A stretch of DNA of 19,553 nt from Thermoplasmata archaeon (GTDB taxonomy: Archaea; Thermoplasmatota; Thermoplasmata; UBA184). Shown one piece after another: positions 515 to 15,649 of the stretch. Below the pieces are notes generated by a model. It worked only from the letters and a program-made list of their open reading frames with translations, searched no databases and was not told the DNA's origin. A program made the position numbers and the translations under genes. How positions within the stretch are numbered: the stretch's first letter is position 1; every line of letters starts with the position of its first letter. The DNA is taken from contig JASHYV010000163.1 of the NCBI GenBank assembly GCA_030064695.1, forward strand, positions 1-19,553, in the 5' to 3' direction.

Positions 515-832
515 GTGGATGCACTCCGCATCGACTCGGAACCCGTTCTCCCCGAACCCGTTCGACGCCGAACGACCCTGGGACCGCGTGCGCTCGCGGA
601 GGTCCGCCTCCCGATCGCCGGTCCGTATCGACCCCGCGCCCGGCTCCTGCGGCTCCCGAGCGGCGAGCTCCGGTGGCGGGTGCGGCTCTGGGAGGTGGAC
701 CGGCCGGTGACGCGGCTGCTGCCCCCCGAGCTCGTCCGCACGTACGCCGAGCGCGCGGGGCTCCGCGACCTCGTCGCCCAATTGGACGCGGCCGTCGAGT
801 CGGCGCGACGCGAGGAGGCGCCCGATGCCTGA
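515..832 (+). CDS. Small protein of unknown function, upstream of the HerA-like ATPase; possible frameshift near its start
   Basis: I do not recognise this protein. The clear coding part runs from about 599 to the TGA at 830-832. It reads as an arginine- and leucine-rich segment (GELRWRVRLWEVDRP) followed by a helical tail (LVRTYAERAGLRDLVAQL). The stop overlaps the ATG of the next gene (825) by 8 bases, so the two are probably translated as a coupled pair. The start is unclear. This frame is open up to a GTG at 425, and I took the GTG at 515 as the nearest in-frame start. The best ribosome binding site in the area (GGGGAGG, 495-501) instead serves a GTG at 507 in another frame. That frame has better codon third positions up to about 598, which suggests a frameshift or assembly error. 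Confidence 0.5.
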   Translation: MDALRIDSEPVLPEPVRRRTTLGPRALAEVRLPIAGPYRPRARLLRLPSGELRWRVRLWEVDRPVTRLLPPELVRTYAERAGLRDLVAQLDAAVESARREEAPDA

Positions 833-3359: not shown

Positions 3360-3382
3360 GGAGCGGGGCGGATTCGGCGACC

Positions 3383-3883
3383 GTGCGCCTGTTCGTGGCC
3401 GTCGACGTGGAAGGCCCGGAGGCTCCGAGCCCGAGTCACCTCACGCTCGCGTTCCTCGGGGAAGTTCCGGACGCCCGGGTCCCGGAAGTGGAGGCGGCCC
3501 TCCCGCCGGTGGCGACGACGGCGGCCCCGTTCGCGATGCGGCTCGAGGGCGTCGGGGCGTTCCCGTCCCGAGAGCGGCCGCGCGTCGTCTGGCAGGGAGT
3601 GGGAGCGGGCGCCGCCGCGCTGGAGTCGCTGGCCTCGCGCACGCGGGCCGCGCTCCGAGAGTGCGTGCCGGGGCTCGAGCGGGAGCGGTTCGTGCCGCAC
3701 GTGACCCTGTTCCGCGTGCGGACCCTCGAGGACCGGCGGCGGGCCCGGGAGCTGCTGGACGGCGCGGTGCCCCCGCCGTCGCCCCGCGACCTCTGGATCG
3801 ACGCGCTCCGGCTCAAGGCGAGCGAGCTCGCGCCCGGCGGGGCGCGCCATCGCACGATCCGCTCCTTTCCCCTCGGGGCTTAG
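3383..3883 (+). CDS. thpR: 2H phosphoesterase, RNA 2',3'-cyclic phosphodiesterase (ThpR/LigT family)
   Basis: 166 residues beginning at a GTG and reading MRLFVAVDVEG. Both family motifs are visible: HLTL at 19-22 and HVTL at 106-109. These two H-x-T motifs form the paired catalytic site of the 2H superfamily, whose LigT/ThpR members hydrolyse 2',3'-cyclic phosphates on RNA ends. The C-terminal LKASELAPGGARHRTIRSFPL is also typical. The protein is short for the family: only about ten residues separate the first strand from HLTL, where relatives usually have a helix and some 25-35 residues. The gene starts 23 bases after the ATPase stop on the same strand, so it is probably in the same transcript. 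A GGAGCGG stretch right after the ATPase TAA is a rather distant ribosome binding site. Confidence 0.85.
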   Translation: MRLFVAVDVEGPEAPSPSHLTLAFLGEVPDARVPEVEAALPPVATTAAPFAMRLEGVGAFPSRERPRVVWQGVGAGAAALESLASRTRAALRECVPGLERERFVPHVTLFRVRTLEDRRRARELLDGAVPPPSPRDLWIDALRLKASELAPGGARHRTIRSFPLGA

Positions 3884-3923
3884 GGGCGACCGAGCACCGT
3901 TCGCGGGTCCGGCCCGCGTCGGC

Positions 3924-3932
3924 AAATTTTTA
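3924..3932 (+). promoter_or_regulatory. TATA box of the large surface-protein gene
   Basis: AAATTTTTA is an isolated AT-only stretch in DNA that is otherwise almost all G and C. It lies between the thpR stop (3883) and the next gene. Transcription would start near 3954, which leaves a leader of about 14 bases to the GTG at 3968 or 41 bases to the GTG at 3995. Confidence 0.7.
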
Positions 3933-3994
3933 CGCGAGGCGAGCGGTCGTGGCCCACCGCCCGGCCGGTGCGGGCTCGGGCGGACGGAGACCGG

Positions 3995-6790
3995 GTGGCC
4001 GTCCTCCGCCTTTGGGGCATTCCGCAACGCGGCGCGCTCGCCGGCGCCGTGCTGGTCCTAGTCCTCGCGGGCCTCGTCCTCGCCGCACCGGGCCCGCCCA
4101 CCCCCGCCTCCGCCGGGTTCGCCTCCGCCTCCGCGTGCCCGGGCGCGCTGGGACCGACGTCGTACCAGGGCGTCGTCGCGGACCTGGGGGGCGCCCCGGG
4201 GGCCGTCTCCGTGTCCGACGTGAAGCTCCTCGTCGACTACTCGATCGAGGCCACGGTGACGAACCTTACGACCGGGGCCGTCGAATCGATCTCCTGCTCT
4301 ACTTCGAGCCTTTCGACCGAGTCGAACGCGACCGGGGGCTTCGCCTTCGGCATCTCCCCCGGCTCGACCTCCTGCCTCGCGCCGGCCGGCGACCCGGAGC
4401 TCGAGTGCACGACGTACTCCGGACCCTACGGACCGCTCGCGATCACGGTGGAGAACCTCCTGCCGCCCGACTACGCGGCGGTGACGAACGAGACCGGGGC
4501 GAACGTGACCGTGGACCTGGTCGCGCTCCTGGAGACGCTCGAGCTCGACCCGACCGGTCCGGTCGCGGTCGACGCGCCCGGGGCCGCCCTCTCGGTGGCG
4601 GCCGTCCCGTATGCCGCCGACGGCGCGCCGACCCCCGCGGGGGTCGGGCTCACGTACAACTGGTCGATCACCGGGTCCGGCTGGTCGCTCGCGGCTCCCT
4701 CGAACACGAGCTCGGTCTCCGTGGTCTCGGCGCTCGACGCCGGGGTCGGCCACCTCTCGGTCTCGGCCGCCACCGCCACGGAAGACGACGACACGAACTC
4801 TCCGGTCCCCCTCGAAACGTCCCCCGCGAACCTCACGCTGTGGGTGGCTGCGACCGGTATCACTTCGAGCGAGCTCAACCGCACGGTGCTCGACGTCGGA
4901 GGCTCCGTGCGGGCGCAGGCCAACGCGACCGGCGCGGCCGGTTTCGCGTACTCGGCGACGTTCTCGAACGGGGAGGGCGGCGCCCCGATCTCGGTGCCGT
5001 GCGCGACCGGGGCGAGCTCCGGGGGCCTGGTCAACGTGAGCTGCTCGGCCGATCTGCCCCTGCCCGAGGCCGGGACCGTCGTCCCGTCCGTCGTCGTCAC
5101 CAACGGGTTCTCCGAGGCCGGCGCGAACTTCACGGCCGTGACGATCACCCCGCCGCCCCAACTCGAGCTCACCCCGTCGGCGCCGGTCGGCTACGCCGGC
5201 GCGCCGATCCCGGTCGAGCTCTCCGCCGCGGCGGGCACCGGCGCGACCCCGTTCCAGGGTGCCTGCCTCGCGACCGGGGGAGCGGTGCTCTGCTCCACGA
5301 GCGCGGGGCCCACCTGGACGTTCGACCCGGTCCTTGCCGACGCCGGGGTCTACTCGGCGACGGCCTGGGCGATCGATGCGGACGGGGAGAACGCGTCCGC
5401 GAGCACGACGCTCGACGTCGTCGCGCCGCTCGACCTCGGCCCGATCTCCGCGCCCTCGAACGCCACCGTCTCCGAGCCGGTCTCCCTCTCGGTCGATCTG
5501 ACCGGCGGCGTTTTGCCCGTCGCCTACTTCTTCAACGCGTCCACGTCCGCCGCACCGCTGGCGGCCGGGACGATGGACTCCGACCGGCCGATCTCGGCGA
5601 CGTTCGACCCGTCCCAATCCGGCGTCGTCCAGGTGACGGTGACGGCGGTGGACGACCTGGGTACCCGGACGGAGGTCGAGACGGACCTCTCGATCGCTCC
5701 CGCGCCGGCCGCGGTGGTCCGGGCGGTCTCGGCGACGCCGGGGAGCGCGGTCGTCGTCGGCACGCCGACCTCCGTCGCCTGGACGGCGTTCGGGGCGGAC
5801 GGACGCCCGGTCCCGACGTACGCGCCGTCGATCGAGCTGACCCTCTCGGGTCCTTCGGGCCCGGTGGCCGGGTGGGTCAACGCCTCGGGGATCGGTCCGT
5901 TCGCTGCCGTCGCGCCCGGGGAGTTCGCCGTGCCCTCGAACGCCTGGGTCAACGGGACGCTCCAAGTCTCGGTGACGGGGGCCGCGGCCGTCGCGACCGC
6001 CGTCGACCTCGTGGGGACCGGGCTGCCGGGCGCGGTCGCGCCCTGGTCGTTCGCGGTGGCGCCCGACCTCGACCACCTCGAGCTCTCCCAACCCGACGTC
6101 GTCGTCCCGGGGGCGCGAACCAACGCGACCGAGTGGACGGTGACGGACCGCTTCGGCGACCCGGTGCCCGGGGCGCCGGTCACGATCGAGGTCGACACCG
6201 CGAGCGGCGGCCTCGCCCGCGTCGCGCCGGCGGTCGTCGGGGCGGGCGGCCTCACGTACGTCTGGGTCAACGTCTCGCTCGGCGCGTCCGGCGGATCCGT
6301 GCGGGTCCTCGACGCGGCGGGCGACCTCCTCCTCCCCGCGCGATCGGTCCCGGCGCTCACCGCTCCGGCGGCCGGCCGGCTCCCGCCGCTCGCCTCGCTC
6401 GGCGCGACGATCCCGATCGGGATCGTCGCCGGGTCGCTCTCCTACGCGGCGGCGCGGCGCCGCCGCCGGTCGTCCCCTCCCCCGCTCGAGGAGGCGATGC
6501 GCCAGCTCTCCGAGGGCCGGGCCCGGATTGAGGAGATCGTGGACGCGACCGGCGGCGCGACGCTGTCGGAACTGGCCCGGGTCTGGGACCCGCCGCCGGC
6601 GCCGCCCGAGCTCGCCGAGTGGGTCGCCTCCCTGGTGACCGATGGCACCCTCGCGCCGACCGAGAGCGTCGCCGGGGAGACCCTCTACCGCCTCGCGCCC
6701 CGCGAGGAGGGCGTGCGGATCACGCTGGACCCGGAGGAGCTCGAGCGGGCGATCGCCCGCCGGGCGGAGGAGACGGAGCCCGAAGGGTAA
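3995..6790 (+). CDS. Large secreted surface protein with Ig/PKD-like domains, C-terminal membrane anchor and cytoplasmic winged-helix-like tail
   Basis: 931 residues from the GTG at 3995, which has GGAGA (3986-3990) just upstream; an in-frame GTG at 3968 is an alternative. A signal peptide is clear: basic start, hydrophobic core AGAVLVLVLAGLVLAA, then a PASA-type cleavage region. The bulk (about 4120-6360) is Ser/Thr/Ala/Val-rich beta-sandwich-like sequence with many Asn-x-Ser/Thr sites and paired cysteines. One stretch (GLTYNWSITGSGWSL) is PKD-like. Near the end a hydrophobic segment (about 6380-6450, IPIGIVAGSLSYAAA) is followed by five arginines, marking the inner membrane face. About 100 residues follow with a helix-turn-helix-like pattern (ATLSELARVW ... 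LAEWVASLVTDGTLAP ... LYRLAP), as in archaeal winged helices. The topology suggests an envelope sensor that could act on DNA or a partner inside; that role is inference. It converges with glyA, 7 bases between stops. Confidence 0.75.
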   Translation: MAVLRLWGIPQRGALAGAVLVLVLAGLVLAAPGPPTPASAGFASASACPGALGPTSYQGVVADLGGAPGAVSVSDVKLLVDYSIEATVTNLTTGAVESISCSTSSLSTESNATGGFAFGISPGSTSCLAPAGDPELECTTYSGPYGPLAITVENLLPPDYAAVTNETGANVTVDLVALLETLELDPTGPVAVDAPGAALSVAAVPYAADGAPTPAGVGLTYNWSITGSGWSLAAPSNTSSVSVVSALDAGVGHLSVSAATATEDDDTNSPVPLETSPANLTLWVAATGITSSELNRTVLDVGGSVRAQANATGAAGFAYSATFSNGEGGAPISVPCATGASSGGLVNVSCSADLPLPEAGTVVPSVVVTNGFSEAGANFTAVTITPPPQLELTPSAPVGYAGAPIPVELSAAAGTGATPFQGACLATGGAVLCSTSAGPTWTFDPVLADAGVYSATAWAIDADGENASASTTLDVVAPLDLGPISAPSNATVSEPVSLSVDLTGGVLPVAYFFNASTSAAPLAAGTMDSDRPISATFDPSQSGVVQVTVTAVDDLGTRTEVETDLSIAPAPAAVVRAVSATPGSAVVVGTPTSVAWTAFGADGRPVPTYAPSIELTLSGPSGPVAGWVNASGIGPFAAVAPGEFAVPSNAWVNGTLQVSVTGAAAVATAVDLVGTGLPGAVAPWSFAVAPDLDHLELSQPDVVVPGARTNATEWTVTDRFGDPVPGAPVTIEVDTASGGLARVAPAVVGAGGLTYVWVNVSLGASGGSVRVLDAAGDLLLPARSVPALTAPAAGRLPPLASLGATIPIGIVAGSLSYAAARRRRRSSPPPLEEAMRQLSEGRARIEEIVDATGGATLSELARVWDPPPAPPELAEWVASLVTDGTLAPTESVAGETLYRLAPREEGVRITLDPEELERAIARRAEETEPEG

Positions 6791-6797
6791 GGCGGGC

Positions 6798-8090
6798 TCA
6801 CTCCGGCTCGCGCCCGACGAGGTCGTAGAACCGGTACGCCGCTTCGCCGGCGGCGAAGCAGTACTGGAGCGTCGTGAATCCGCTCTTCAGCTCGGCCGCG
6901 CCGGCCCGCACCTCGTCGGGCGACCGGCCCCGGTGGAGGAGCGCGTCGAACAGCTCGGCGATCCGCTCCATCTCCTTCGGGCCCATGCCGACCCGGGTCA
7001 CCTCGGGGGAGCCCAACCGGATCCCCTGCGGGTGCTTCGGGCTCTTGTCGCCCGGGAGGAGGTTCTTGTTCGAGATGATCCCGGCGTCGGCGAGCCGCTT
7101 CGCGACCTCCTCGCCGCCCCCCTCCTTCTCGACGCGGACCGCGATCGTGTGGGAGCGGGTGAACCCCAGGTCGGGCGCGAGCACGTCGAAGCCGCGGTCG
7201 TGCAGCGCCTGGGCGAGGGCTCGAGCGTTCTCGACGGTGCGCCGCGCGAGGTCCCGGCCGTACTCCAGGAACTCGGCGAGGCTCACGGCGAGGGCCGCCA
7301 TCGCGGCCAGGTGGTGGTTGCTCGTGACGCCGGGGAAGGCGCCCGACTCGAGCTTCTTCTTGAGCTCGGGGTCGTCGGTTTCCGCGAGGAGGATCCCGTG
7401 CTGCGGCCCCGGGAGCGTCTTGTGCGTCGAGGCGGAGATCACGGCGCACCCCTCGCGCAGCGGGTCCTGGAACTCGCCGCCGGCGATCAGGCCTAGCACG
7501 TGCGCCCCGTCGTACCAGCCGCGGGCGCCGATCTCCTCGAGCGTCGGCCGGAGCTCCTCGATCGGCATCGGGAAGAGGAACAGGGAGAGCCCGAAGAGGC
7601 AGGTCTTCGGCCGCACGGCCCTCAGGATCTCCCGCGTGCGCGGGACGTCGATCGTCATCCGCTCGGGGTCCCAGGCGTAGTAGACCGGCTTCACGCCCCG
7701 GAGGCCGAACGCGCCGAAGCCCGCCGACGAGATGTGCGCCCCGTCCGCGAGGCGGCTCGTCCCGACCAAGTCGCCGGGCTCGACGAGCGCCTTCAGCACC
7801 GCCAGGTTCGCGACCGTCCCGCTGATCGGCCGCACGTCGGCGAACGAGCAGCCGAAGAGCCGGCGCGCCAGGTCGAGGCAGGTCCGCTCGACCCGGTCGA
7901 CCTGCTCGTTCCCCTCGTAGTAGCGCTCGCCGGGGAGCCCTTCCGCGTACCGCGAGTTGAAGTCGGAGATCAGCAGCTCCTTCGCGTACGGCGAGAGGAG
8001 GTTCTCCGACGCGATCAGCGGGATCGCGTGCTCGAAGCGGGTCGAGTGGGCCCGGACCTCGTCGCGGATCGACCGGACCGTCCGGGCCAT
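6798..8090 (-). CDS. glyA: Serine hydroxymethyltransferase
   Basis: 430 residues. This is the pyridoxal-phosphate enzyme that interconverts serine and glycine while passing a one-carbon unit to a folate or methanopterin carrier, in the cytoplasm. The sequence follows archaeal homologues closely: IPLIASEN near the start, YAEGLPGERYYEGNE, the PLP-facing segment YDGAHVLGLIAG, and STHKTLPGPQHG with the Schiff-base lysine at about residue 224. Further on are FPGVTSNHH and NKNLLPGD. I chose the ATG at 8088-8090 because MARTVRSIRDEV lines up with the N-terminus of methanogen GlyA. The frame is open to 8216, but the extra 42 residues are Gly/Pro/Arg-rich and look untranslated. GGGGAG touches this ATG directly. 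The leader contains one copy of the CCAGTGGAAA motif. The gene is divergent from the thioesterase gene. Confidence 0.93.
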   Translation of the reverse strand: MARTVRSIRDEVRAHSTRFEHAIPLIASENLLSPYAKELLISDFNSRYAEGLPGERYYEGNEQVDRVERTCLDLARRLFGCSFADVRPISGTVANLAVLKALVEPGDLVGTSRLADGAHISSAGFGAFGLRGVKPVYYAWDPERMTIDVPRTREILRAVRPKTCLFGLSLFLFPMPIEELRPTLEEIGARGWYDGAHVLGLIAGGEFQDPLREGCAVISASTHKTLPGPQHGILLAETDDPELKKKLESGAFPGVTSNHHLAAMAALAVSLAEFLEYGRDLARRTVENARALAQALHDRGFDVLAPDLGFTRSHTIAVRVEKEGGGEEVAKRLADAGIISNKNLLPGDKSPKHPQGIRLGSPEVTRVGMGPKEMERIAELFDALLHRGRSPDEVRAGAAELKSGFTTLQYCFAAGEAAYRFYDLVGREPE

Positions 8091-8130
8091 CTCCCCGGGG
8101 GCCGGGGTCGGGAACGGGCGGGACCCCCGC

Positions 8131-8157
8131 CCCCCTCCGTTTCCACTGGAGAAGTTC
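8131..8157 (-). repeat. CCAGTGGAAA/G-run motif, copy 1 (glyA leader)
   Basis: Read on the minus strand this is GAACTTCTCCAGTGGAAAC followed by GGA and a long run of G. Its core is the near-palindrome TCCA-G-TGGA. A second copy, in the opposite orientation, follows the thioesterase gene at 8703-8726. Here it lies about 40 bases before the glyA start. Confidence 0.5.
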
Positions 8158-8214
8158 CCGGGCATCCCGCGCTCCGCGCCCCGCACGGCGCGGGCGGGCC
8201 ACCCCCTCCCGTCC

Positions 8215-8220
8215 ATATAT
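8215..8220. promoter_or_regulatory. TATA box between glyA and the thioesterase gene
   Basis: ATATAT stands alone in GC-rich DNA. Its centre is about 26 bases before the ATG at 8243, the usual archaeal TATA-to-start distance, so the thioesterase mRNA is probably leaderless. Being palindromic, it could also serve glyA on the other strand with a leader of about 100 bases. Confidence 0.65.
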
Positions 8221-8242
8221 GCGGATGGGCCGTGCGCCGCCG

Positions 8243-8695
8243 ATGGCCCCGGCGGACGCCGCGCCCCACCCCTGGCCGGTCTCCCGGCGCTTCTACGTCC
8301 CGTACCACGACATCGACATCCTGGACCACCTCAACCACGCCGCGTACTTTCCGCTCATGGAGACGCTCCGCTGCGACTACTACCTCCCGCTCCTCGGGAC
8401 GACCGACCCGGCCCGGATCGACATCATCATCGCCGAGGCGACGTGCCGGTACCTCGCTCCGGTCGCCTACGGCGCCGAGCTGGTCGGCGAGGTCGCTCCG
8501 GCCCGGCCGCTCGGTCGGACCAGCTTCACGCTGCTCTACCGCTTCTCTATCGCCGGAACCTCGACCGTGACGGCCCGGGGCCGCACCGTGATCGTGACCT
8601 ACGACTACGCTCGTTCGACGAAGGCCGAGATCCCGGCCGACCGTCGGGTCCGGCTCGAGAAGGACGCGGTCGACCCCGCGTCGGAAGGCTGGTAG
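8243..8695 (+). CDS. Acyl-CoA thioesterase, hotdog fold (4HBT family)
   Basis: 150 residues from the ATG at 8243. The signature HDIDILDHLNHAAYF (22-36) matches the catalytic helix of 4-hydroxybenzoyl-CoA thioesterase-like proteins, where an Asp followed by H-x-N marks the active site; D28 and N31 are the likely equivalents. The later strand-rich segment (ATCRYLAPVAYGAEL ... GRTSFTLLYRF ... GRTVIVTYDY) is the usual hotdog sheet. Such enzymes hydrolyse acyl-CoA thioesters; the substrate cannot be read from sequence. In-frame ATGs at 8219 and 8225 exist, but they overlap or sit too near the TATA box at 8215-8220, which favours 8243. The gene is divergent from glyA and ends 42 bases before a convergent small gene. 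Confidence 0.85.
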   Translation: MAPADAAPHPWPVSRRFYVPYHDIDILDHLNHAAYFPLMETLRCDYYLPLLGTTDPARIDIIIAEATCRYLAPVAYGAELVGEVAPARPLGRTSFTLLYRFSIAGTSTVTARGRTVIVTYDYARSTKAEIPADRRVRLEKDAVDPASEGW

Positions 8696-8702
8696 GCGGG
8701 GC

Positions 8703-8726
8703 GAAGTTCCAGTGGAAAAGGGGGGG
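8703..8726 (+). repeat. CCAGTGGAAA/G-run motif, copy 2 (after the thioesterase gene)
   Basis: GAAGTTCCAGTGGAAAA followed by seven G. The core TTCCA-G-TGGAA (8707-8717) is a perfect 5+1+5 palindrome. It starts 8 bases after the thioesterase stop and lies between convergent genes. Copy 1, in opposite orientation, is at 8131-8157. Confidence 0.5.
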
Positions 8727-8737
8727 TGGGGGGCCCC

Positions 8738-9031
8738 TCAGAAGCCGGGGTGGGTCGCGTGCCCGCGGGAGAGCGGCGGCGGCCACGGGATCGGCTCGAT
8801 GTACGCCGGGTCCTCGGCGACCGTCTCGACTCGATAGACGACCCCGGTGCCGCGGAGCGCGACGTGGATCTTGCCCAGGATGTCGTGGAACTCGTCGATC
8901 GTCGTCCACTCGAAGGCGAGGTCGTGGGGGCCGATGATGAACGAGAGGCCGGACGCCTTCCGCACCCGGTCGGCGATGTCCATCGGGGAGACGCCCTCGG
9001 GCTCGAAATAGAGGTCGATGTAGGTGTGCAT
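8738..9031 (-). CDS. Small conserved-looking protein, possibly a stand-alone RAM (Lrp/AsnC ligand-binding) domain
   Basis: 97 residues. I do not recognise the protein with certainty. The order of elements (strand TYIDLYFEPE, helix MDIADRVRKASG, strand LSFIIGPHDLAFEW, helix TIDEFHDILGKIHVAL, strand GVVYRVETV) gives a beta-alpha-beta-beta-alpha-beta pattern. It resembles the effector-binding half of Lrp/AsnC regulators, with no DNA-binding half. Proteins of that kind bind amino acids or related ligands as oligomers; a role here is inference. The ATG at 9029-9031 is preceded by a good TATA box (9065-9074), giving a leader of about 12 bases and no Shine-Dalgarno. It is convergent with the thioesterase gene. 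Confidence 0.7.
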   Translation of the reverse strand: MHTYIDLYFEPEGVSPMDIADRVRKASGLSFIIGPHDLAFEWTTIDEFHDILGKIHVALRGTGVVYRVETVAEDPAYIEPIPWPPPLSRGHATHPGF

Positions 9032-9064
9032 CGGCGGCGGTAGGGTAGAGACGCCGGCAGCTCC

Positions 9065-9074
9065 TATTTAAATT
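9065..9074 (-). promoter_or_regulatory. TATA box of the small RAM-like gene
   Basis: AATTTAAATA on the minus strand is the most AT-rich ten bases in this part of the window. Transcription would start near 9044, just ahead of the ATG at 9031. Confidence 0.75.
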
Positions 9075-9105
9075 CCGTTACACGGGACGACTCTCGAGCT
9101 ATACG

Positions 9106-9127
9106 GCACCGGCCCCGGGGCCGGTGC
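9106..9127. repeat. Perfect 22-bp palindrome at the 3' end of the SRP RNA gene
   Basis: Two 11-base arms (GCACCGGCCCC and its reverse complement) meet with no spacer, centred between 9116 and 9117. It overlaps the last bases of helix 1 of the SRP RNA on the minus strand. As RNA it would form a strong GC hairpin directly after the mature 3' end, so it may help termination or 3' processing. No T run follows. Confidence 0.75.
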
Positions 9128-9437
9128 TAGGCCAGCAGGATTGCCGCCCGGACGAACCCCGCGGAGACCCCGCGCGCTCCTCGGCCCCGTCGCCCCGCCG
9201 ACGTCGACGGGTCACGGTAAGGCTGCTCCCGTCAGGACCTGACCCGATGCCCGTGATGGATACCCGCTAGGGCGCTCCTCCGAGCGCCCGTCGCGGGACC
9301 CGCGGCCCGGCGGAACAGAGCGTCTACGAAGCTACACGAGACGCGAAGCTCGTCCGAACGTCGTTCCTGCCTGTCACCCCCGCTGAGGACGGTTTCGGTG
9401 TGTAAGGGGACGCCCAACCCCCCGGTCCAGCCTAGCG
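9124..9437 (-). ncRNA. Archaeal signal recognition particle RNA (7S RNA)
   Basis: About 314 bases, the usual archaeal length. The S-domain core is unmistakable on the minus strand: GGTCAGGTCC, a four-base loop TGAC, then GGGAGCAGCC (9244-9221). This is the SRP54-binding helix 8. The Alu-domain start, GGGGGGTTGGGCGTCCCC (9423-9406) followed by GAAACCGTCC (9396-9387), matches archaeal 7S RNAs. The ends pair as helix 1: GCTAGGC near 9436-9430 with GCCTAGC at 9132-9126. The RNA scaffolds SRP54 and SRP19 for co-translational targeting of membrane and secreted proteins. Ends are estimated from the pairing and from the TATA-like box at 9457-9466. Confidence 0.92.
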
Positions 9438-9456
9438 GCGAAAGGACGCCGGACCC

Positions 9457-9466
9457 TCTACATAGC
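9457..9466 (-). promoter_or_regulatory. Probable TATA-like box of the SRP RNA gene
   Basis: On the minus strand CTATGTAGAG is centred about 25 bases before the 5' end predicted by helix 1 pairing (about 9437). It is weaker than the other TATA boxes here, and it includes the TAG stop of the OsmC gene. Confidence 0.45.
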
Positions 9467-9934
9467 GCTTGGGCCCGCGATCTCGGGCTCGACCCGGACC
9501 GGGAAGTTCACCGAGTTCGCGATGAAGCACTTCGCGTGCGCCGCCTCGTGGATCTCGAGCGCGCGCTTCGGGTCCCCGCGCTCGATCCGGACCCGGGGCC
9601 GGAGCGTGACCGAGGTGAACCGCCCGCCGCCGTCCGCCGACTCCTCCATCGTCCCTTCGGCGGCGTCCTCGTAGCCGCGGACGACGATCCCGGCCTCGGA
9701 GGCCAGGTGGAGGTACCAGAGCAGATGGCAGGCGGAGAGCGACGCGACCAGGAGTTCCTCCGGGTTGTACCGGGTCGCGTCGCCGCGGAAGGTCGGGTCC
9801 GACGAACCGGCGAGCTCCGGCTTGCCCGCGACCCGGACCACGTGGTCCCGGCCGTACTCGCGGTAGCCCGACGTGCCGGAGCCGCGGTCCCCGGTCCACA
9901 CCACCCCGACCGAGTAGGCGTGGGCTCGCGGCAT
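9458..9934 (-). CDS. OsmC/Ohr-family peroxide-handling protein
   Basis: 158 residues. The family's two redox cysteines are in their usual settings: C69 in LLVASLSACHLLWYLHLA and C136 in HAKCFIANSVNFPV. The N-terminal strands and the GYRE ... NPEELLVAS segment also fit OsmC. Members reduce organic hydroperoxides in the cytoplasm through these cysteines using dithiol donors; the exact substrate is not visible. The ATG at 9932-9934 has GGGAGG two bases upstream, and a TATA-like TTATC near 9960 would place transcription start almost at the ATG. The SRP RNA follows directly on the same strand. Without the 3.4-kb insertion upstream, this gene would lie 46 bases after the KaiC-like ATPase gene. Confidence 0.87.
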   Translation of the reverse strand: MPRAHAYSVGVVWTGDRGSGTSGYREYGRDHVVRVAGKPELAGSSDPTFRGDATRYNPEELLVASLSACHLLWYLHLASEAGIVVRGYEDAAEGTMEESADGGGRFTSVTLRPRVRIERGDPKRALEIHEAAHAKCFIANSVNFPVRVEPEIAGPSAM

Positions 9935-9980
9935 CGCCTCCCACGACGGGACGTTCGGCGATAACCGTGCCGACCGGCGC

Positions 9981-10099
9981 CTAGCGGATGTGCTCGAGGC
10001 TGAAGGAGCCCAGGTTCAAGGAGCGCTTCGAGAAGGTGTAGCCGATCCACGCGCGGGCCTGCGCCTCGCCGAGACCGCGGACCGAGAGGAACGTCTTCA
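9981..10099 (-). pseudogene. Detached 3' end of the KaiC-like ATPase gene (left repeat copy)
   Basis: On the minus strand this encodes KTFLSVRGLGEAQARAWIGY followed by TFSKRSLNLGSFSLEHIR and a TAG stop. That is exactly the last 38 residues of the ATPase gene ending at 13376. An ATG stands directly before it (10100-10098), so a 39-residue peptide could be made, but I see no dedicated promoter. Weak protein similarity continues a little further upstream (VERM against IEQL) and then stops. The base differences from the right copy are all synonymous. I read this as the original chromosomal gene end left behind by an insertion. Confidence 0.8.
9982..10099. repeat. 118-bp direct repeat, left copy (attachment-site-like)
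   Basis: It matches 13377-13494 at a constant offset of 3395 bases with three mismatches, all in the first 24 bases (9993, 9996, 10005). The remaining 94 bases (10006-10099) are identical. The repeat ends at the boundary with more AT-rich DNA. Confidence 0.93.
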
Positions 10100-10144
10100 T
10101 CCGCTCAACGCATGTTTTGCCGCTCGGTTCGACGGTGAGATAGA

Positions 10145-10165
10145 AGTACAATGGTTTCAAGTACT
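10145..10165. repeat. Short inverted repeat near the left end of the element
   Basis: AGTAC and GTACT are separated by 11 bases, just inside the element and upstream of the first cargo gene's TATA-like box. The short arms make it a weak candidate for an operator or recombinase site. Confidence 0.3.
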
Positions 10166-10170
10166 GTGAC

Positions 10171-10178
10171 GGTATAGG
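10171..10178 (+). promoter_or_regulatory. TATA-like box of the first cargo gene
   Basis: GGTATAGG; the same GGTATAG occurs before the second cargo gene (11927-11933). Transcription would start near 10200, which argues against the TTG at 10186 as the translation start of the downstream gene. Confidence 0.45.
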
Positions 10179-10284
10179 GTCCACGTTGCCCGTGCGCGCG
10201 GAACGCACGGTCGGGGCCGAGCCGGGTGAGGCCCGCGACCCACCCGGCATCGTGGCGGTTGGGGGGCTTCACGGACGTTGCGGC

Positions 10285-11877
10285 GTGTCCGGGTATCACG
10301 GGCGCACCGCCCGGCGACCGGGACCGGAGTGGATTGGCCTCGTTGCAAGCTTTCTGACAGTCGCTCTGCTGATTCTCGCCAGCGATCTCCTGGTAGGTAG
10401 CGCCAGGGCGTCGGGTCCACAGCTTTGCACATGCGCCTGCTACGGAACGTGTGGCGGCGGCTGCCCGAGCGGCTCCACCTTGGGCTTGGACGAAACGACG
10501 GTGTATCTGAATCCCACGAACGTCACGCTCTCTTGGGATGTTACCACGGCGTACGTCGACAGTGCATGGGCGAACGTCACGTTCGGAACCTCGACGACGT
10601 ACGCCTTCTACGCCGCGAACGAGTCGGGGTTAGGAAGGGACGTCTACATCAACTACCTTGAACCCTCCACCACCTACTACTACAAGATCGCGGCGTACGG
10701 CTACTGCCTCGCGACCCCGTACCACTGGTATCACGGCACTCTCACCGGGTCCTTTTCTACGACCGCCGCGACAGTTTGGACCTACCATCCTCAGTACTTG
10801 TCTGGACAGGTGCTCAACAGCACCGGAAGTGCGGGGGCAACCGGAATGCTTGTCATAGCCTACTGCTCAGACTGGATGGGCACCTGGGACGACATGATCT
10901 ACAACTATTCGGGCGCGACCAGCGCGGTCTCTCGCTACTGGTGGCAGTCCGCCACAGTCGGCGCGGATGGTTACTTCGCGATTCAAGTCAGTGCCGAGGG
11001 CCAGGACGATGGGGTCGGGAACGACACGTACGCCGAGGTTTGTGACTGGGGTGGCTCAACGACCGTGGTGAGCATCTTCACATCCACTTCCGAGAGGTGT
11101 GGCTATCTTGGCGTATGCGTCTCCGGCGGCGCGTGGGGCGGCCTCGGCACCTGGAATGAGACTTTCGTCGTTTGGGATCGTCCCTACATCGATGTGGAAG
11201 CGCCGACTAACGGGCTTGGGCCCTACGTGCCGCTTGAGCTGGAATACACGAACAGCTCGTACGCCACCTTACAGTTCAACGAGTCGGTTAGCGTGACCGC
11301 GACCTACACTGCGACCATCGCTGGCAACGGAGGGTCGACGTCCTCGAGCTTCGTACAGTCCATTTCCGGCTCTGCTACGGGGGAGAACGTAGAGACTTGG
11401 GCGCGCTACTACTGTTCAGGTTGGGCAACCTTCAATGCTACGACCCGCTCGAGTTCGTTGTCGTACGTGAGTTTCTTCGGGGCGATATACGACTCCACGA
11501 CTCAGAACCTGATTAGCGGCGTTCCGCTGTCACCCTCCTCAATTACCCGGAGCGAGGCCTTTGGAGACGGCCTCTGGTACTGGTTCAACATCACACATTC
11601 AGAGACCCGAGCAGGGGGTGTGACCGTAACCGGTTCCGTCACCGACGTCAGCGGTCTCGATATTACACTGGACGTTTCATTCGACCTTGGAGGGGTTGTC
11701 TCTATCGGAGCCAGTATTCCGATAACCGTTGAATTCTCCACTACGACATCGTATTCCGATGCGCTTTACTTCTCCGTGTACAATACCGGATCCACCACAC
11801 ATGCGTTTACCGCGTACGTACAGGGGGGATCGACCACCACATCGGGCCTTATACTCTATCTCTGGCAAATGGACTAA
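10285..11877 (+). CDS. Secreted protein with cysteine cluster and fibronectin-III-like domain (element cargo)
   Basis: 530 residues from the GTG at 10285. The frame is open up to a TTG at 10186, and a GTG at 10252 is also possible; I prefer 10285 because it gives a compact basic start and lies after the likely transcription start near 10200. A signal peptide is clear (WIGLVASFLTVALLILASDLL, cut near ARA-SG). Five cysteines follow at 48, 50, 52, 56 and 60 (C-x-C-x-C-x3-C-x3-C). Next is a beta-sandwich ending in DVYINYLEPSTTYYYKIAAY, typical of fibronectin type III. The rest is Ser/Thr/Tyr-rich with many Asn-x-Ser/Thr sites and no C-terminal anchor. It is probably exported and glycosylated. I cannot name a function. 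Base composition differs from the surrounding chromosome. Confidence 0.78.
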   Translation: MSGYHGRTARRPGPEWIGLVASFLTVALLILASDLLVGSARASGPQLCTCACYGTCGGGCPSGSTLGLDETTVYLNPTNVTLSWDVTTAYVDSAWANVTFGTSTTYAFYAANESGLGRDVYINYLEPSTTYYYKIAAYGYCLATPYHWYHGTLTGSFSTTAATVWTYHPQYLSGQVLNSTGSAGATGMLVIAYCSDWMGTWDDMIYNYSGATSAVSRYWWQSATVGADGYFAIQVSAEGQDDGVGNDTYAEVCDWGGSTTVVSIFTSTSERCGYLGVCVSGGAWGGLGTWNETFVVWDRPYIDVEAPTNGLGPYVPLELEYTNSSYATLQFNESVSVTATYTATIAGNGGSTSSSFVQSISGSATGENVETWARYYCSGWATFNATTRSSSLSYVSFFGAIYDSTTQNLISGVPLSPSSITRSEAFGDGLWYWFNITHSETRAGGVTVTGSVTDVSGLDITLDVSFDLGGVVSIGASIPITVEFSTTTSYSDALYFSVYNTGSTTHAFTAYVQGGSTTTSGLILYLWQMD

Positions 11878-11904
11878 GATCGACTCCGCGACCGATAGAG
11901 GGGA

Positions 11905-11923
11905 CAACCTCAAGCCGAGGTTG
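11905..11923. repeat. Hairpin-forming inverted repeat between the two cargo genes
   Basis: CAACCTC and GAGGTTG form a perfect 7-bp stem around the loop AAGCC. GAGGTTG recurs at 11933-11939, just before the next start codon, so the left arm could pair with either copy and cover or expose the start region. No T run follows, so it is not an obvious terminator. Confidence 0.45.
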
Positions 11924-11943
11924 CAAGGTATAGAGGTTGGAAG

Positions 11944-13263
11944 ATGGCGGGTGATGGTGCGACGCCCCACCGCGGAGATCTTCGGCCGACCTCGCGGAAG
12001 TGGCTGGCGATTGCGGCCGCAGTGCTAGTCGTCACAGCGGGTGTAGGATACGTGGCCTATCGTAGTTTCGCCTCACCAACGGCTGCCGGGCACGGAAGCG
12101 GCGCTTCGACTTCGCCCGTCAATCCGGGCAACGGGCTCACCTTTCTCCAGGCATTTGGCCCGGTCAACGAGAGCGTCCAAGGGACGAGTGGGTCCCCTTG
12201 GACTCCGACCTCGATCGTCGGCATCGCCCCGCAAGCTCCGGCCGCCCCCCTCCCGAATTATCGTCTTTCCCTCAACGAAACTCTGCGCCTCTGTCAAGAG
12301 CTCCCAGGGGTAACGGTGTGGAACTCGAGCGGAATACCGGTGTTCAACGGCACGCTCAACTCCGGCGCCGCGCCGTTCTGGTCCTTCATTTTCAAGAACG
12401 CGACCGGGGCCTACATGTATGCCACGAACTTGGAGGGGAAGGTAACCGTCGATCCACCGTCGACGACCTTCGAGGCCTGCTTGATGGCTGGCGGCCTCGG
12501 ATCGAGCTATCTGCTGAATCCGACGGAGAACACGCCCGCCGCTTCGGAGTTGGCGTACTCGACTTACGGCGAGAACTTCTCGAGCCAGCACTCACCTCTC
12601 GTGGAGTACTATGTGCTGGGGAATGCCCAACTGCTGGATCCTGACGCAAGTCCACTCGGCTGGATCGTGAACTACTTCCGATGCGACCAAGTCGGAGTCA
12701 GCGGAATTCAGGACTACCTCGCGGTCGGCAATCTTGATAACGGAAACGAAAGCGGAGTGGTCGAGGACAACGGGTGGCTGACCTGCACGTACTCCGACTA
12801 CGACCTTGCATTCGAGTCACCGTCCAATGCTACCCCCTCAGGTACGGCTGGACGGTACATCTCCATCCCTTTCCAAGTGACGTTTCCACCTTCCGGAAAC
12901 CAGACGACCTACTACGATGGATGGGGGCTGCTCTCTTGGATGACAGATTTGACCCTGACCGATTCCGAAGGTCAGCAGCTGCTCCCGACGGCCGCGACCT
13001 GCGCAGCGTGGGTACCGGAGCTAGCCGACTGCCCGGCTAGTGACCAGGGCTGGTTCGCCGTGCTGCTCTCCGAAAACGGAGCATGGCTCGACAGCTATCC
13101 CGCGACCCCGGGGAGCGGAAGTTGGACGATACCCAACGTCATAGTCAGTAGCACGGATCAGTTGGTGATCGTTACTCCAAACTCCTGGAATGCCTCCGAG
13201 GACGCCCTCAGCCTCTACGGCACCCCTAATGCCCCCGCGGTGATCGGAAACACGGATCTTTAG
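11944..13263 (+). CDS. Membrane-anchored extracellular protein of unknown function (element cargo)
   Basis: 439 residues from the ATG at 11944. A short basic cytoplasmic start (ending TSRK) is followed by one membrane segment at about residues 20-39 (WLAIAAAVLVVTAGVGYVAY), without a clear cleavage site. The remaining 400 residues should face outward. They are rich in Ser, Thr, Gly and aromatic residues, have several Asn-x-Ser/Thr sites (NESV, NETL, NATG, NFSS, NQTT, NASE) and scattered cysteines that could pair. I recognise no catalytic motif. The gene lies 66 bases after the other cargo gene on the same strand and shares its lower GC content, so the two probably arrived together and may act together at the cell surface. 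Confidence 0.75.
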   Translation: MAGDGATPHRGDLRPTSRKWLAIAAAVLVVTAGVGYVAYRSFASPTAAGHGSGASTSPVNPGNGLTFLQAFGPVNESVQGTSGSPWTPTSIVGIAPQAPAAPLPNYRLSLNETLRLCQELPGVTVWNSSGIPVFNGTLNSGAAPFWSFIFKNATGAYMYATNLEGKVTVDPPSTTFEACLMAGGLGSSYLLNPTENTPAASELAYSTYGENFSSQHSPLVEYYVLGNAQLLDPDASPLGWIVNYFRCDQVGVSGIQDYLAVGNLDNGNESGVVEDNGWLTCTYSDYDLAFESPSNATPSGTAGRYISIPFQVTFPPSGNQTTYYDGWGLLSWMTDLTLTDSEGQQLLPTAATCAAWVPELADCPASDQGWFAVLLSENGAWLDSYPATPGSGSWTIPNVIVSSTDQLVIVTPNSWNASEDALSLYGTPNAPAVIGNTDL

Positions 13264-13375
13264 GCTATACGCTCGAAAACGGCCGCCCACGGGATGGCCA
13301 ACTGCCAGCAAGTCCAATGCCCGCTCCAATGTGGGCCGGCGAGTTCGGGCACTGTTTGCCCGTGGCGACCTTCCC

Positions 13376-15649
13376 TTAGCGGATGTGTTCCAGGCTGAAC
13401 GAGCCCAGGTTCAAGGAGCGCTTCGAGAAGGTGTAGCCGATCCACGCGCGGGCCTGCGCCTCGCCGAGACCGCGGACCGAGAGGAACGTCTTCAGCTGCT
13501 CGATCTTGAGATTGATCGAGCCGTCGACCATGTGCTCGAGCGTCTCCAGGTCCGACTCGGAGTGCATGCCGGAGTCGAGGATGTAGTAGGCGACCGCCTG
13601 GTCGAGCTTGCGGCGCCCGACGAACGGCTGCAGGAACCGGAACGTGGCCGCGGTGTCGAGGTACGCGGTGATCGTCGAGACCGACTCGAAGATGAGCCGG
13701 TACGTCGGGAACTGCTCCTTGAGCTCTTCCGCGAACCCGTTCACCGTCGAGGCGAGCTGGTCGAGGACCCCCTTGTCGGTCGAGGAGAGGAACCGTACCC
13801 CGGACGCGGCGGCCTGGGAGCCGACCGATCGCGAGTAGAGGTCGACGTACCGGACCATCCCGCGCTTCTCGGCGTCGGCGAACTGCGGGTAGAGCCCGGC
13901 CAGGTCGTCGCGGACCTGCGTGTAGGTCTTGTCGGTGACGACCCAGATCGACGGGATCCCGGCCTTCAAGCCCTCCGCCGAGAAGAGCCGCGCGAGCACG
14001 TCCTTCCCCGTGTGCGCCGGCCCGTTGACCAGGATCTGGAGGCCCGGCGAGAACCCTCCGAACAGGAGATCGTCGAGTCGGCGGACCCCGCTCTTGACCT
14101 TGACCTCCTGCGCGGACTCCTGGACGTCAGCCTGCATGCGGCCGGCCTCGGCCTCGGCGGCCTGCGCGCCCATCCGCTCGAGCGTTTGCATCCGCTCGTG
14201 CAGCAGCCCCTCGCGGCCCTTCAGTTCGGCCTCCTTCATCGAGAGCTGGTGGCGGAGATCGTCGAGCCGCCGCGCCTCCTCGGAGGCGGTGACGGACCCC
14301 CCCGAGCCGACGGTGCGGCGCAGCTCCTCGAGCCGCCGCGCCTCGATGTCGAGCGCCTTCTTGCGGGTCTCGAGCTGCTGGTCGTAGGCGGCGAGCTCGC
14401 GTTCCTTGAACTCGAGCGGTCCGCGGCGCCGCTCGAGCTCGTCCGCGTTGATCCGGAACTCCTCGAAGCGCGTGCGCAGCTCGTTCTCGCGGGCGCCCAG
14501 GTCGCGCTCCCGCCGGTCGACCTCCTCGAGCCGGGAGGAGAAGTCGGCCGCCACGGGCCCGCCCTCCTTTCCGAGCAGCTGCTCCCGCTCCTTGGCCCGG
14601 TCGAGCTCGCCGCGGAGGTTCCGCACGTCGCCCTCGAGCTGGATGATGCGGCGCCGAAGGTCGGTCTCCCGCTCCACGTACTCGTGCTCGCGATCGGAGA
14701 ACTCCTCTCGGAGGCGCGCGTCGAGCTCGCGGGTCGCCTTTTCGACGGCGTCGACCGTCGTCCGGGCCGCGATGGCCGGTGCGCCCGCCGGCACGTCGCC
14801 GGGAGCGCCGTCGGCCGGAGCCCGGACCCCGCCGCTCTCGAGCGCCAGGAGCCGGAGCTTGAGCTCCGCGATCTCGTCCTCCTTCTCGCGGACCGCGATC
14901 TCGCGCTCCTTCGCCTCGCGGCCGCGGACGTACTTGATGACGGCGATCGAGCCGCGCTTCACGTGCTCGACCTCGTCCTCGAGCTGCTTGCGCTTCGCCC
15001 GCTCGTCGTAGAGCTGCCGCTGGAGGTCCTGCGCCTCGACGATGAGCGACGACGGGTCGAACTGGTCGGTCTTCACCCGGTCGAGGAGTCCCGTGAGCCA
15101 CCGGACGACGGTCTCCTCGCGCTCCAGCACGGGGGCGACCTGCGCGTCCGCCGTGGCCGGGCGGGGCGCGCCCTCCGACGGCGGAGCGGGGCCGGTGACC
15201 GGCGCGGGCCCGGCCGCCGCCGGACGGGCCGGCTCCGCCGTGCGGATCCAGTCCTCCATCGCGCGATCGTCGCCGTCGACCCATTTCTTCAGCACGTCGG
15301 CCGAGCCCTGCGGCGCGGCCCCGACGCGACGCTTCTTGCCCCGGTCGGGGCGCCGGACGGTGCCCGCCCAGCGCTCGACGAGCTCGTCGGAGCTCGCCGG
15401 GCTCGCGCCCGGCGCGGGCGCGGCGCCGGCTGCGCCGGCGGCCCGGATCCGCTCCACGTCGGACATCCCGAGTCCGAGCCGCGTCAGCTGGTCGGCGGAG
15501 AGTTCCCGGACCTGCACGGCCGTGGTGAGGCCGGCCTGGTGGAGGATCTCGCCCGCCTCGGCCGAGACGCCGAGCGCCCGGGCCAGCTCCTCCGCGACGG
15601 GCGACGCGGCGGGGGACCGCTCGGGGGTCGGGGACGCCGCGCTATCCAT
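13376..15649 (-). CDS. Long coiled-coil protein with N-terminal HhH-like domain and C-terminal KaiC/RadA-like ATPase domain
   Basis: 757 residues. Residues about 18-72 look like a helix-hairpin-helix domain as in RadA (ALGVSAEAGEILHQAGLTTA ... LTRLGLGMSDVERI). A Pro/Ala linker follows, then a charged heptad-rich coiled coil from about 180 to 505. Residues about 510-757 form a RecA-fold domain starting VKSGVRRLDDLLFGGFSPG, as in KaiC, with Walker A GPAHTGKD at 543-550 (K549). The Walker B strand reads YRLIFESVSTI, with Glu (655) where KaiC relatives carry Asp. The ATG at 15647-15649 has a TATA box (15685-15692) giving a leader of about 13 bases. The last 38 codons form the right copy of the 118-bp repeat, and the stop is TAA. 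It may be a structural or signalling ATPase; the function is unknown. Confidence 0.85.
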   Translation of the reverse strand: MDSAASPTPERSPAASPVAEELARALGVSAEAGEILHQAGLTTAVQVRELSADQLTRLGLGMSDVERIRAAGAAGAAPAPGASPASSDELVERWAGTVRRPDRGKKRRVGAAPQGSADVLKKWVDGDDRAMEDWIRTAEPARPAAAGPAPVTGPAPPSEGAPRPATADAQVAPVLEREETVVRWLTGLLDRVKTDQFDPSSLIVEAQDLQRQLYDERAKRKQLEDEVEHVKRGSIAVIKYVRGREAKEREIAVREKEDEIAELKLRLLALESGGVRAPADGAPGDVPAGAPAIAARTTVDAVEKATRELDARLREEFSDREHEYVERETDLRRRIIQLEGDVRNLRGELDRAKEREQLLGKEGGPVAADFSSRLEEVDRRERDLGARENELRTRFEEFRINADELERRRGPLEFKERELAAYDQQLETRKKALDIEARRLEELRRTVGSGGSVTASEEARRLDDLRHQLSMKEAELKGREGLLHERMQTLERMGAQAAEAEAGRMQADVQESAQEVKVKSGVRRLDDLLFGGFSPGLQILVNGPAHTGKDVLARLFSAEGLKAGIPSIWVVTDKTYTQVRDDLAGLYPQFADAEKRGMVRYVDLYSRSVGSQAAASGVRFLSSTDKGVLDQLASTVNGFAEELKEQFPTYRLIFESVSTITAYLDTAATFRFLQPFVGRRKLDQAVAYYILDSGMHSESDLETLEHMVDGSINLKIEQLKTFLSVRGLGEAQARAWIGYTFSKRSLNLGSFSLEHIR
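13377..13494. repeat. 118-bp direct repeat, right copy (3' end of the KaiC-like gene)
   Basis: This copy is continuous with the full ATPase gene. Compared with the left copy it has CTG GAA in place of CTC GAG, TCG in place of TCC, and stop TAA in place of TAG; residues are unchanged. Two of these changes lower the GC content, as expected if this end was supplied by the more AT-rich element. Confidence 0.93.

Follow-up and report, generated by a model that had tools for sequence, protein, structure and literature searches.

Results

The window (the whole stretch of DNA analysed here, 19,553 nucleotides) is part of a GC-rich Thermoplasmata genome and carries, in this order, glyA, a thioesterase gene, a gene for a 97-aa protein, the SRP RNA gene, osmC, a cassette of two genes, a KaiC-like ATPase gene and tyrS. 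The ATPase gene (13376..15649, minus strand) is the target of the cassette; its 757-aa product has a coiled-coil N-terminal part and contains PF06745 (Pfam match with E 1.6e-16) and PF24336. A search with this protein returned 573 homologs at E ≤ 0.001, and among the best 120 of these the organism, where named, is Thermoplasmata archaeon. The C-terminal residues LGSFSL[ED]HIR are almost invariant across these 120 listed homologs. One homolog (P0001) differs from the window ATPase at 1 of 757 residues and, judged by sequence, seems to come from a second strain of the same species. The downstream neighbour of the ATPase gene is osmC (9458..9934, minus strand; PF02566). The archaeal SRP RNA gene lies at 9125-9437 on the minus strand (RF01857, 127.6 bits), between osmC and the gene of the 97-aa protein, and relatives have a gap of ~450-510 bases at this place.

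Self-comparison of the window revealed a direct repeat, 9981-10106 versus 13376-13501, in which 120 of 126 bases agree and six differ, and which comprises the last 41 codons and the stop of the ATPase gene. The copy that forms the present 3′ end of the gene (13376..13501, minus strand; henceforth referred to as the gene-side copy) is in frame and ends in TAA, and the copy next to osmC (9981..10106, minus strand; the far copy) ends in TAG. The far copy translates as ERMKTFLSVRGLGEAQARAWIGYTFSKRSLNLGSFSLEHIR followed by its stop, where the gene has EQLKTFL...EHIR and its stop, and four of the six changed codons are silent if TAA/TAG is counted as silent. The direct repeats are thus the 3′ end of the target gene with the reading frame kept. 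The longest identical run is a core of 94 bases, located at 10006..10099 in the far copy and at 13401..13494 in the gene-side copy (both minus strand). Past the stop a weaker similarity extends for ~16 further bases (142 bases at 93% in all), and on the inner side only 6 of 10 bases are similar, which could be chance. The spacing between the far stop (9981) and the osmC start (9934) is 46 bases, and GC content is 60.1% in the cassette compared to 73.4% in the remaining window. The preliminary description of this DNA had proposed an AT-richer insert bounded by repeats at a constant offset of 3395 bases, each being the coding end of the ATPase gene including its stop, with 46 bases left to osmC, and all of this was borne out by our analysis. 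Its count of 94 identical bases out of 118 stands as the length of the longest identical run, but the repeat as a whole is better given as 120 of 126.

The cassette contains two genes, both on the plus strand, for which we use the working names cas1 and cas2, with no relation to the CRISPR genes. cas1 (10186..11877) encodes 563 aa as the longest frame, with a hydrophobic stretch around residues 46-75 and 12 Cys, and cas2 (11944..13263) encodes 439 aa with a hydrophobic stretch at ~19-40. Since each protein has one strong hydrophobic stretch near its N-terminus and 10-11 NxS/T sites, both are likely, as far as sequence can tell, to be membrane-anchored surface proteins. Neither matched Pfam, NCBIfam or PHROGs (in PHROGs, nothing up to E 1); cargo relatives were not found in viral contigs, cas2 had no match in plasmids or phage records, and its PDB search gave nothing below E 0.001. 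Structure models were poor, with a mean pLDDT of 59 for cas2 and 39 for cas1. Searches of the same three collections recognised no recombinase in the cassette. The unit also lacks an integrase gene of its own, as an autonomous tyrosine-recombinase element would carry, a transposase or casposase gene, as expected of a DDE transposon or casposon, and, with PHROGs up to E 1, any virus hallmark gene of a provirus. Among 25 of 28 inverted pairs listed, none joins both cassette borders as terminal inverted repeats would.

Including the window's own proteins, database matches numbered 6 for cas1 and 28 for cas2, and an HMM of cas2 found relatives, many of them weak, in 55 of 106 genomes. cas1 and cas2 are adjacent in genomes G044, G031, G061 and G010, and also, at contig ends, in G106 and G102. 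Their neighbours vary: the EF-2 gene in G044, a DUF655 gene and a recombinase gene in G061 and a transposase gene in G010, and in G087 the gene of ribosomal protein S3Ae adjoins cas2. GC3 was 0.72 for both cargo genes in the window and in G044, 0.74-0.75 for cargo in G091 and G025 and 0.56-0.81 in G061, G031, G078 and G087, to be compared with a host baseline taken from window genes only, in which five other genes have values of 0.943-0.977 (0.943 being a long putative surface-protein gene). Relatives of cas1 and cas2 often lie at contig ends (L114, L120, L121, L124, L125), which may reflect variable flanks in the population. The contigs of an ATPase homolog (P0006) and of a cas2 homolog (P0128) are both 192574 bases long.

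To establish whether the ATPase site is empty elsewhere, as the preliminary description had asked by suggesting a search for the ATPase gene followed directly by osmC, we compared 63 related ATPase loci, which are labelled Thermoplasmata or other euryarchaeotes with the exception of one (L062) labelled 'bacterium'. A second ATPase tail was present in none of the 63; 38 of them hold at least 3.6 kb past the gene, and in the 25 with less a distant second copy could be missed. osmC follows next after the ATPase gene in five relatives (L008, L010, L018, L028 and L034), at distances of 40, 40, 54, 189 and 232 bases, measured to gene starts that were set by coding score, and the 46 bases in the window belong to the same spacing class. 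In the locus L001 (73% identity) the ATPase gene is followed by the genes for the 97-aa protein, the thioesterase and GlyA, an order shared with the window except that osmC and the cassette are missing. The target site is therefore empty in relatives. None of the 63 loci was an empty allele from the same species, and the window was the only occupied ATPase-gene site found. A search with the 41-residue ATPase tail gave matches in 91 of 106 genomes of the order, and second tail matches, among those listed, were long frames of a paralogue or lay at contig edges. In one locus (L048), the KaiC-like gene is immediately followed by a remote cas2-like gene (5130-6353; 26% over 151 aa), and the tail is not repeated.

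We next considered how unusual such repeats are and compared with themselves 136 loci (1.80 Mb, from this and related genomes, overlap between loci having been spot-checked only). With thresholds of at least 80% identity, at least 50 bases and a gap of 600-10000, only four direct-repeat pairs passed in 1.80 Mb, the window being one of them. Three of the four bracket cargo genes, for which random placement would give 1-5% each, although the window is itself among the three and so is not independent. The other two are a clean pair in G025 and a weak one in L111, both described below. When 108 gene tails from 14 cargo contigs were tested with gaps allowed, the window scored 166 bits and a contig of G025 111. 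Tails in G073 and G087 reached 41.1 against a null maximum of 38.3, at 62-68% identity, and were not taken as repeats. Overall, a duplicated gene end was found in three of the 14 cargo contigs (window, G025 and G061), and the other 11 had no clear gene-tail repeat.

Several further candidates were set aside. An 83-base, 86% repeat surrounds two cas2-type genes in G091 (L111, 7410-7492 and 11432-11514), between a diphthamide-synthase and an asparagine-synthase gene; it is a weak case because it begins beyond what is conserved in the diphthamide-synthase gene as a domain and no frame has an excess of silent-site changes. Visual inspection alone suggested an IS-like remnant next to it. The repeats in L108 (70%) and L116 (75 bases, three copies) are not clean gene tails, and in L045 two genes have C-termini that resemble each other. 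In G044 the EF-2 tail lies near the cargo and had no second copy within the stretch tested.

The same anatomy as in the window was found at another gene in G025 (G025:C36, locus L113), where two 3′ ends of a 278-289-aa gene enclose one cas2-type gene in a unit of 1.75 kb. This target gene, regulator-like by eye and with no Pfam match, is present in 47 of 61 genomes searched, and among the matches listed for these 61 a separate copy of the tail alone occurs only in G025; the match in G022:C35 was partial, and that in G091:C25 broken into pieces. The repeat has a 75-base identical core and diverged tails that differ by indels and both terminate in a stop; the far copy shows silent differences inward of the core. 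No recombinase was found in the unit and no further repeat of at least 80% in 183 kb of G025. L113 starts at base 1 of its contig and the core ends at base 197, and among the 19 full contigs of the G025 bin we found two joins with overlaps of exactly 197 bases. As this overlap equals the distance from the contig start to the core end, we take it as a sign that the assembly branches at the border of the cassette, and hence an empty allele is probably present in the same sample; the other branch was not in the G025 bin. Another contig of this bin (L172, G025:C14; 2751 bases) has two ends that match over all 400 bases tested, in both orientations.

In G061, cargo genes lie beside a non-conserved tyrosine recombinase gene. 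The region (L109; G061:C4 34034-48633) spans 14.6 kb, has a 3′ end of a DUF655 gene at either border and contains, after the DUF655 gene and 36 bases, genes for a 353-aa tyrosine recombinase (PF00589, E 1.3e-17) and a 241-aa protein, cas2, cas1 and IS481-like pieces. Outside G061, the closest match of the recombinase in the 61 genomes searched is in G044 (37%). At a distance of 14.6 kb, with 31 bases left to the contig end, lies a second copy of the final 23 bases of the DUF655 gene, in which 20 of 23 bases agree, the three differences are silent and the stop is kept. This tail scored 15.5, and no match of 13.5 or more occurred in 4.96 Mb of other loci on both strands. In a stop-anchored test of 156 gene tails, which misses G025 because its tails differ by indels, G061 ranked second after the window, and its score was reached in 1 of 468 null comparisons. 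The 14.6-kb region is, on sequence grounds, a probable integrated element at the DUF655 gene end.

To determine which tail belongs to which partner, we compared the codons of the two window copies with those of 33 relatives. On the gene side, the stop TAA occurs in none of the 33, GAA in two and CTG in four; in the far copy, a CGG codon on the inner side is found in none. The rarity, among relatives, of the gene-side TAA, GAA and CTG, together with the absence of the far copy's CGG from them, would fit a reciprocal crossover inside the core, with the gene-side tail probably supplied by the element and the far copy probably the original end of the gene. One codon counts against an element-supplied gene-side tail: there TCG is the common state (31 of 33 relatives), and the far copy has the rare TCC.

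Discussion

Taken together, we consider it probable that the 3395-base unit is an integrated mobile element that restores the gene end it enters and has no recombinase of its own, in the manner of cis-mobilizable elements. A circle carrying the two surface-protein genes and a homologous ATPase 3′ end would recombine within that end, whereupon the ATPase gene would keep its body and take the last codons and the stop of the element, and the old tail would end up on the osmC side. The recombinase would be provided in trans, or the unit would be carried along within a larger element in the way of cis-mobilizable elements; alternatively, the unit may be what deletions have left of an element resembling the one in G061. 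The circular intermediate, the recombinase in trans, the ownership of the tails and present mobility are all steps that we infer. Entry into a gene end by an integrase, as proposed in the preliminary description, is in keeping with the empty sites, the accessory nature and varied places of the cargo and two analogous tail loci, one of which has a tyrosine recombinase. The proposal is thus supported in part: no recombinase was recognised in the cassette, and a scan of viral contigs with the tail turned up nothing resembling attP.

Several observations sit less comfortably with the 3395-base unit being such an element. The cores of the window and of G025 (94 and 75 bases) are fully identical even though the ends diverge, which a strand exchange of 6-8 bases alone does not explain, and the two cores share no motif beyond chance, which makes one common recombinase unlikely. 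The same holds for the failure to find a recombinase in either unit, for the 11 of 14 cargo contigs in which no gene end is clearly duplicated, for the null comparison that equalled the G061 score and for the ATPase site being found occupied in the window alone. The main rival is homologous recombination alone, in which the circle of a relative, with a diverged tail and cargo, would enter by a single crossover, and the tails would allow excision likewise. Long identical cores within diverged homologous flanks are what heteroduplex repair or conversion leaves, and the lack of a shared core motif, the lack of a recombinase in both the window and the G025 unit, and the L048 locus, where a remote cas2-like gene follows the ATPase gene with no repeat, all agree with this model. 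However, ~130 bases offer little homology for recombination, a tyrosine recombinase and a short 23-base repeat at a gene end occur together in G061, and the tail of the integrase element e14 is 165 bp long with 12 changes (PMC11148124), so that long diverged tails do not need the homologous-recombination model. The G061 locus and the e14 tail thus favour site-specific recombination, at least in origin, and we regard homologous recombination alone as rather unlikely. A broader version, doubtful in our view, would have a class of recombinase-free Thermoplasmata surface-gene cassettes that use homologous recombination only, with a host 3′ end as the landing homology, the gene always restored and the landing gene changing between lineages.

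Capture of a donor tail and cargo by one homologous and one illegitimate end would leave a unit that was never mobile and a 126-base duplication arisen by chance. Such a single event also yields a donor tail on the gene side and the old tail on the far side, but it needs coincidence to account for the recurrence of this anatomy in G025, where related cargo sits at a different gene, and for the bias of repeats towards cargo, and plain retention of an old tail does not predict the inner-side silent differences of the G025 far copy; we therefore hold it to be improbable. That two alleles or strains were misjoined in the assembly, an idea to which the near-identical P0001 and its hint of a second strain lend some substance, is barely credible, since the copies differ, mostly at silent sites and with both in frame, their flanks differ as well, and the same anatomy recurs in G025, another assembly.

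The general kind of element to which the preferred reading, a gene-end-restoring mobile element, would assign the unit is already known. Prophage e14 in icd of Escherichia coli K-12 duplicates 165 bp of the gene tail; the duplicate has 12 base changes, alters two residues conservatively and keeps the frame (PMC11148124, PMC6379469). It resembles the window unit in having a protein-coding target whose tail is duplicated with changes and without loss of frame, and differs in being a bacterial prophage that carries intE, a putative integrase gene, whereas no recombinase gene accompanies the two genes of the window unit. Streptococcal CIMEs (PMC7563491) are 1.2-13 kb long and carry nothing but cargo between flanking recombination sites, genes for recombination or transfer being absent, and composite islands with CIMEs lie in the 3′ ends of rpmG, rpsI, fda and rplL. 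Like them, the window unit is flanked by recombination sites (here putative) and has no recombination or transfer gene; unlike it, they are bacterial, are defined as derivatives of ICEs or IMEs and stand in tandem with these, whereas the window unit is archaeal, alone at its site and has no known parent element, the G061 element being a possible relative. The latter shares with the window unit cas2 and cas1 and a gene 3′ end duplicated with silent differences and an intact stop, but is 14.6 kb long, has its own recombinase and a different target gene, and its repeat is 23 bases. In Thaumarchaeota, 3′ ends of protein genes serve as the target of 14 of the 68 elements mapped (PMC6563490), and in NitEve-E2 the stop TAG is replaced by TAA with the frame kept. 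These elements resemble the window unit in their use of protein-gene 3′ ends and, for NitEve-E2, in the change from TAG to TAA, and differ in that, in the same account, most att sites are <26 bp (median 17) and cryptic elements encode an integrase by definition.

A protein-coding target per se is therefore already known, from the thaumarchaeal elements (PMC6563490) and from e14 in icd (PMC11148124). As far as can be told, the novelty lies in the archaeal lineage, in the genes targeted and in the cargo family, which links three genomes; literature titles on Thermoplasmata islands, integrases and tyrosine recombinases, drawn for the most part from outside the subscription journals, mention no such cassettes. 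The finding concerns very small units (3.4 kb in the window, 1.75 kb in G025) in a little-known archaeal lineage that carry surface genes, keep the target whole and have no recognisable recombinase. Their anatomy, a gene tail with its stop, cargo, and a second tail with silent differences, can serve as a search rule. That the cargo serves surface-protein exchange is a guess; if the units are mobile, they would provide a route for the exchange of surface proteins between archaea that surveys keyed to integrases would miss.
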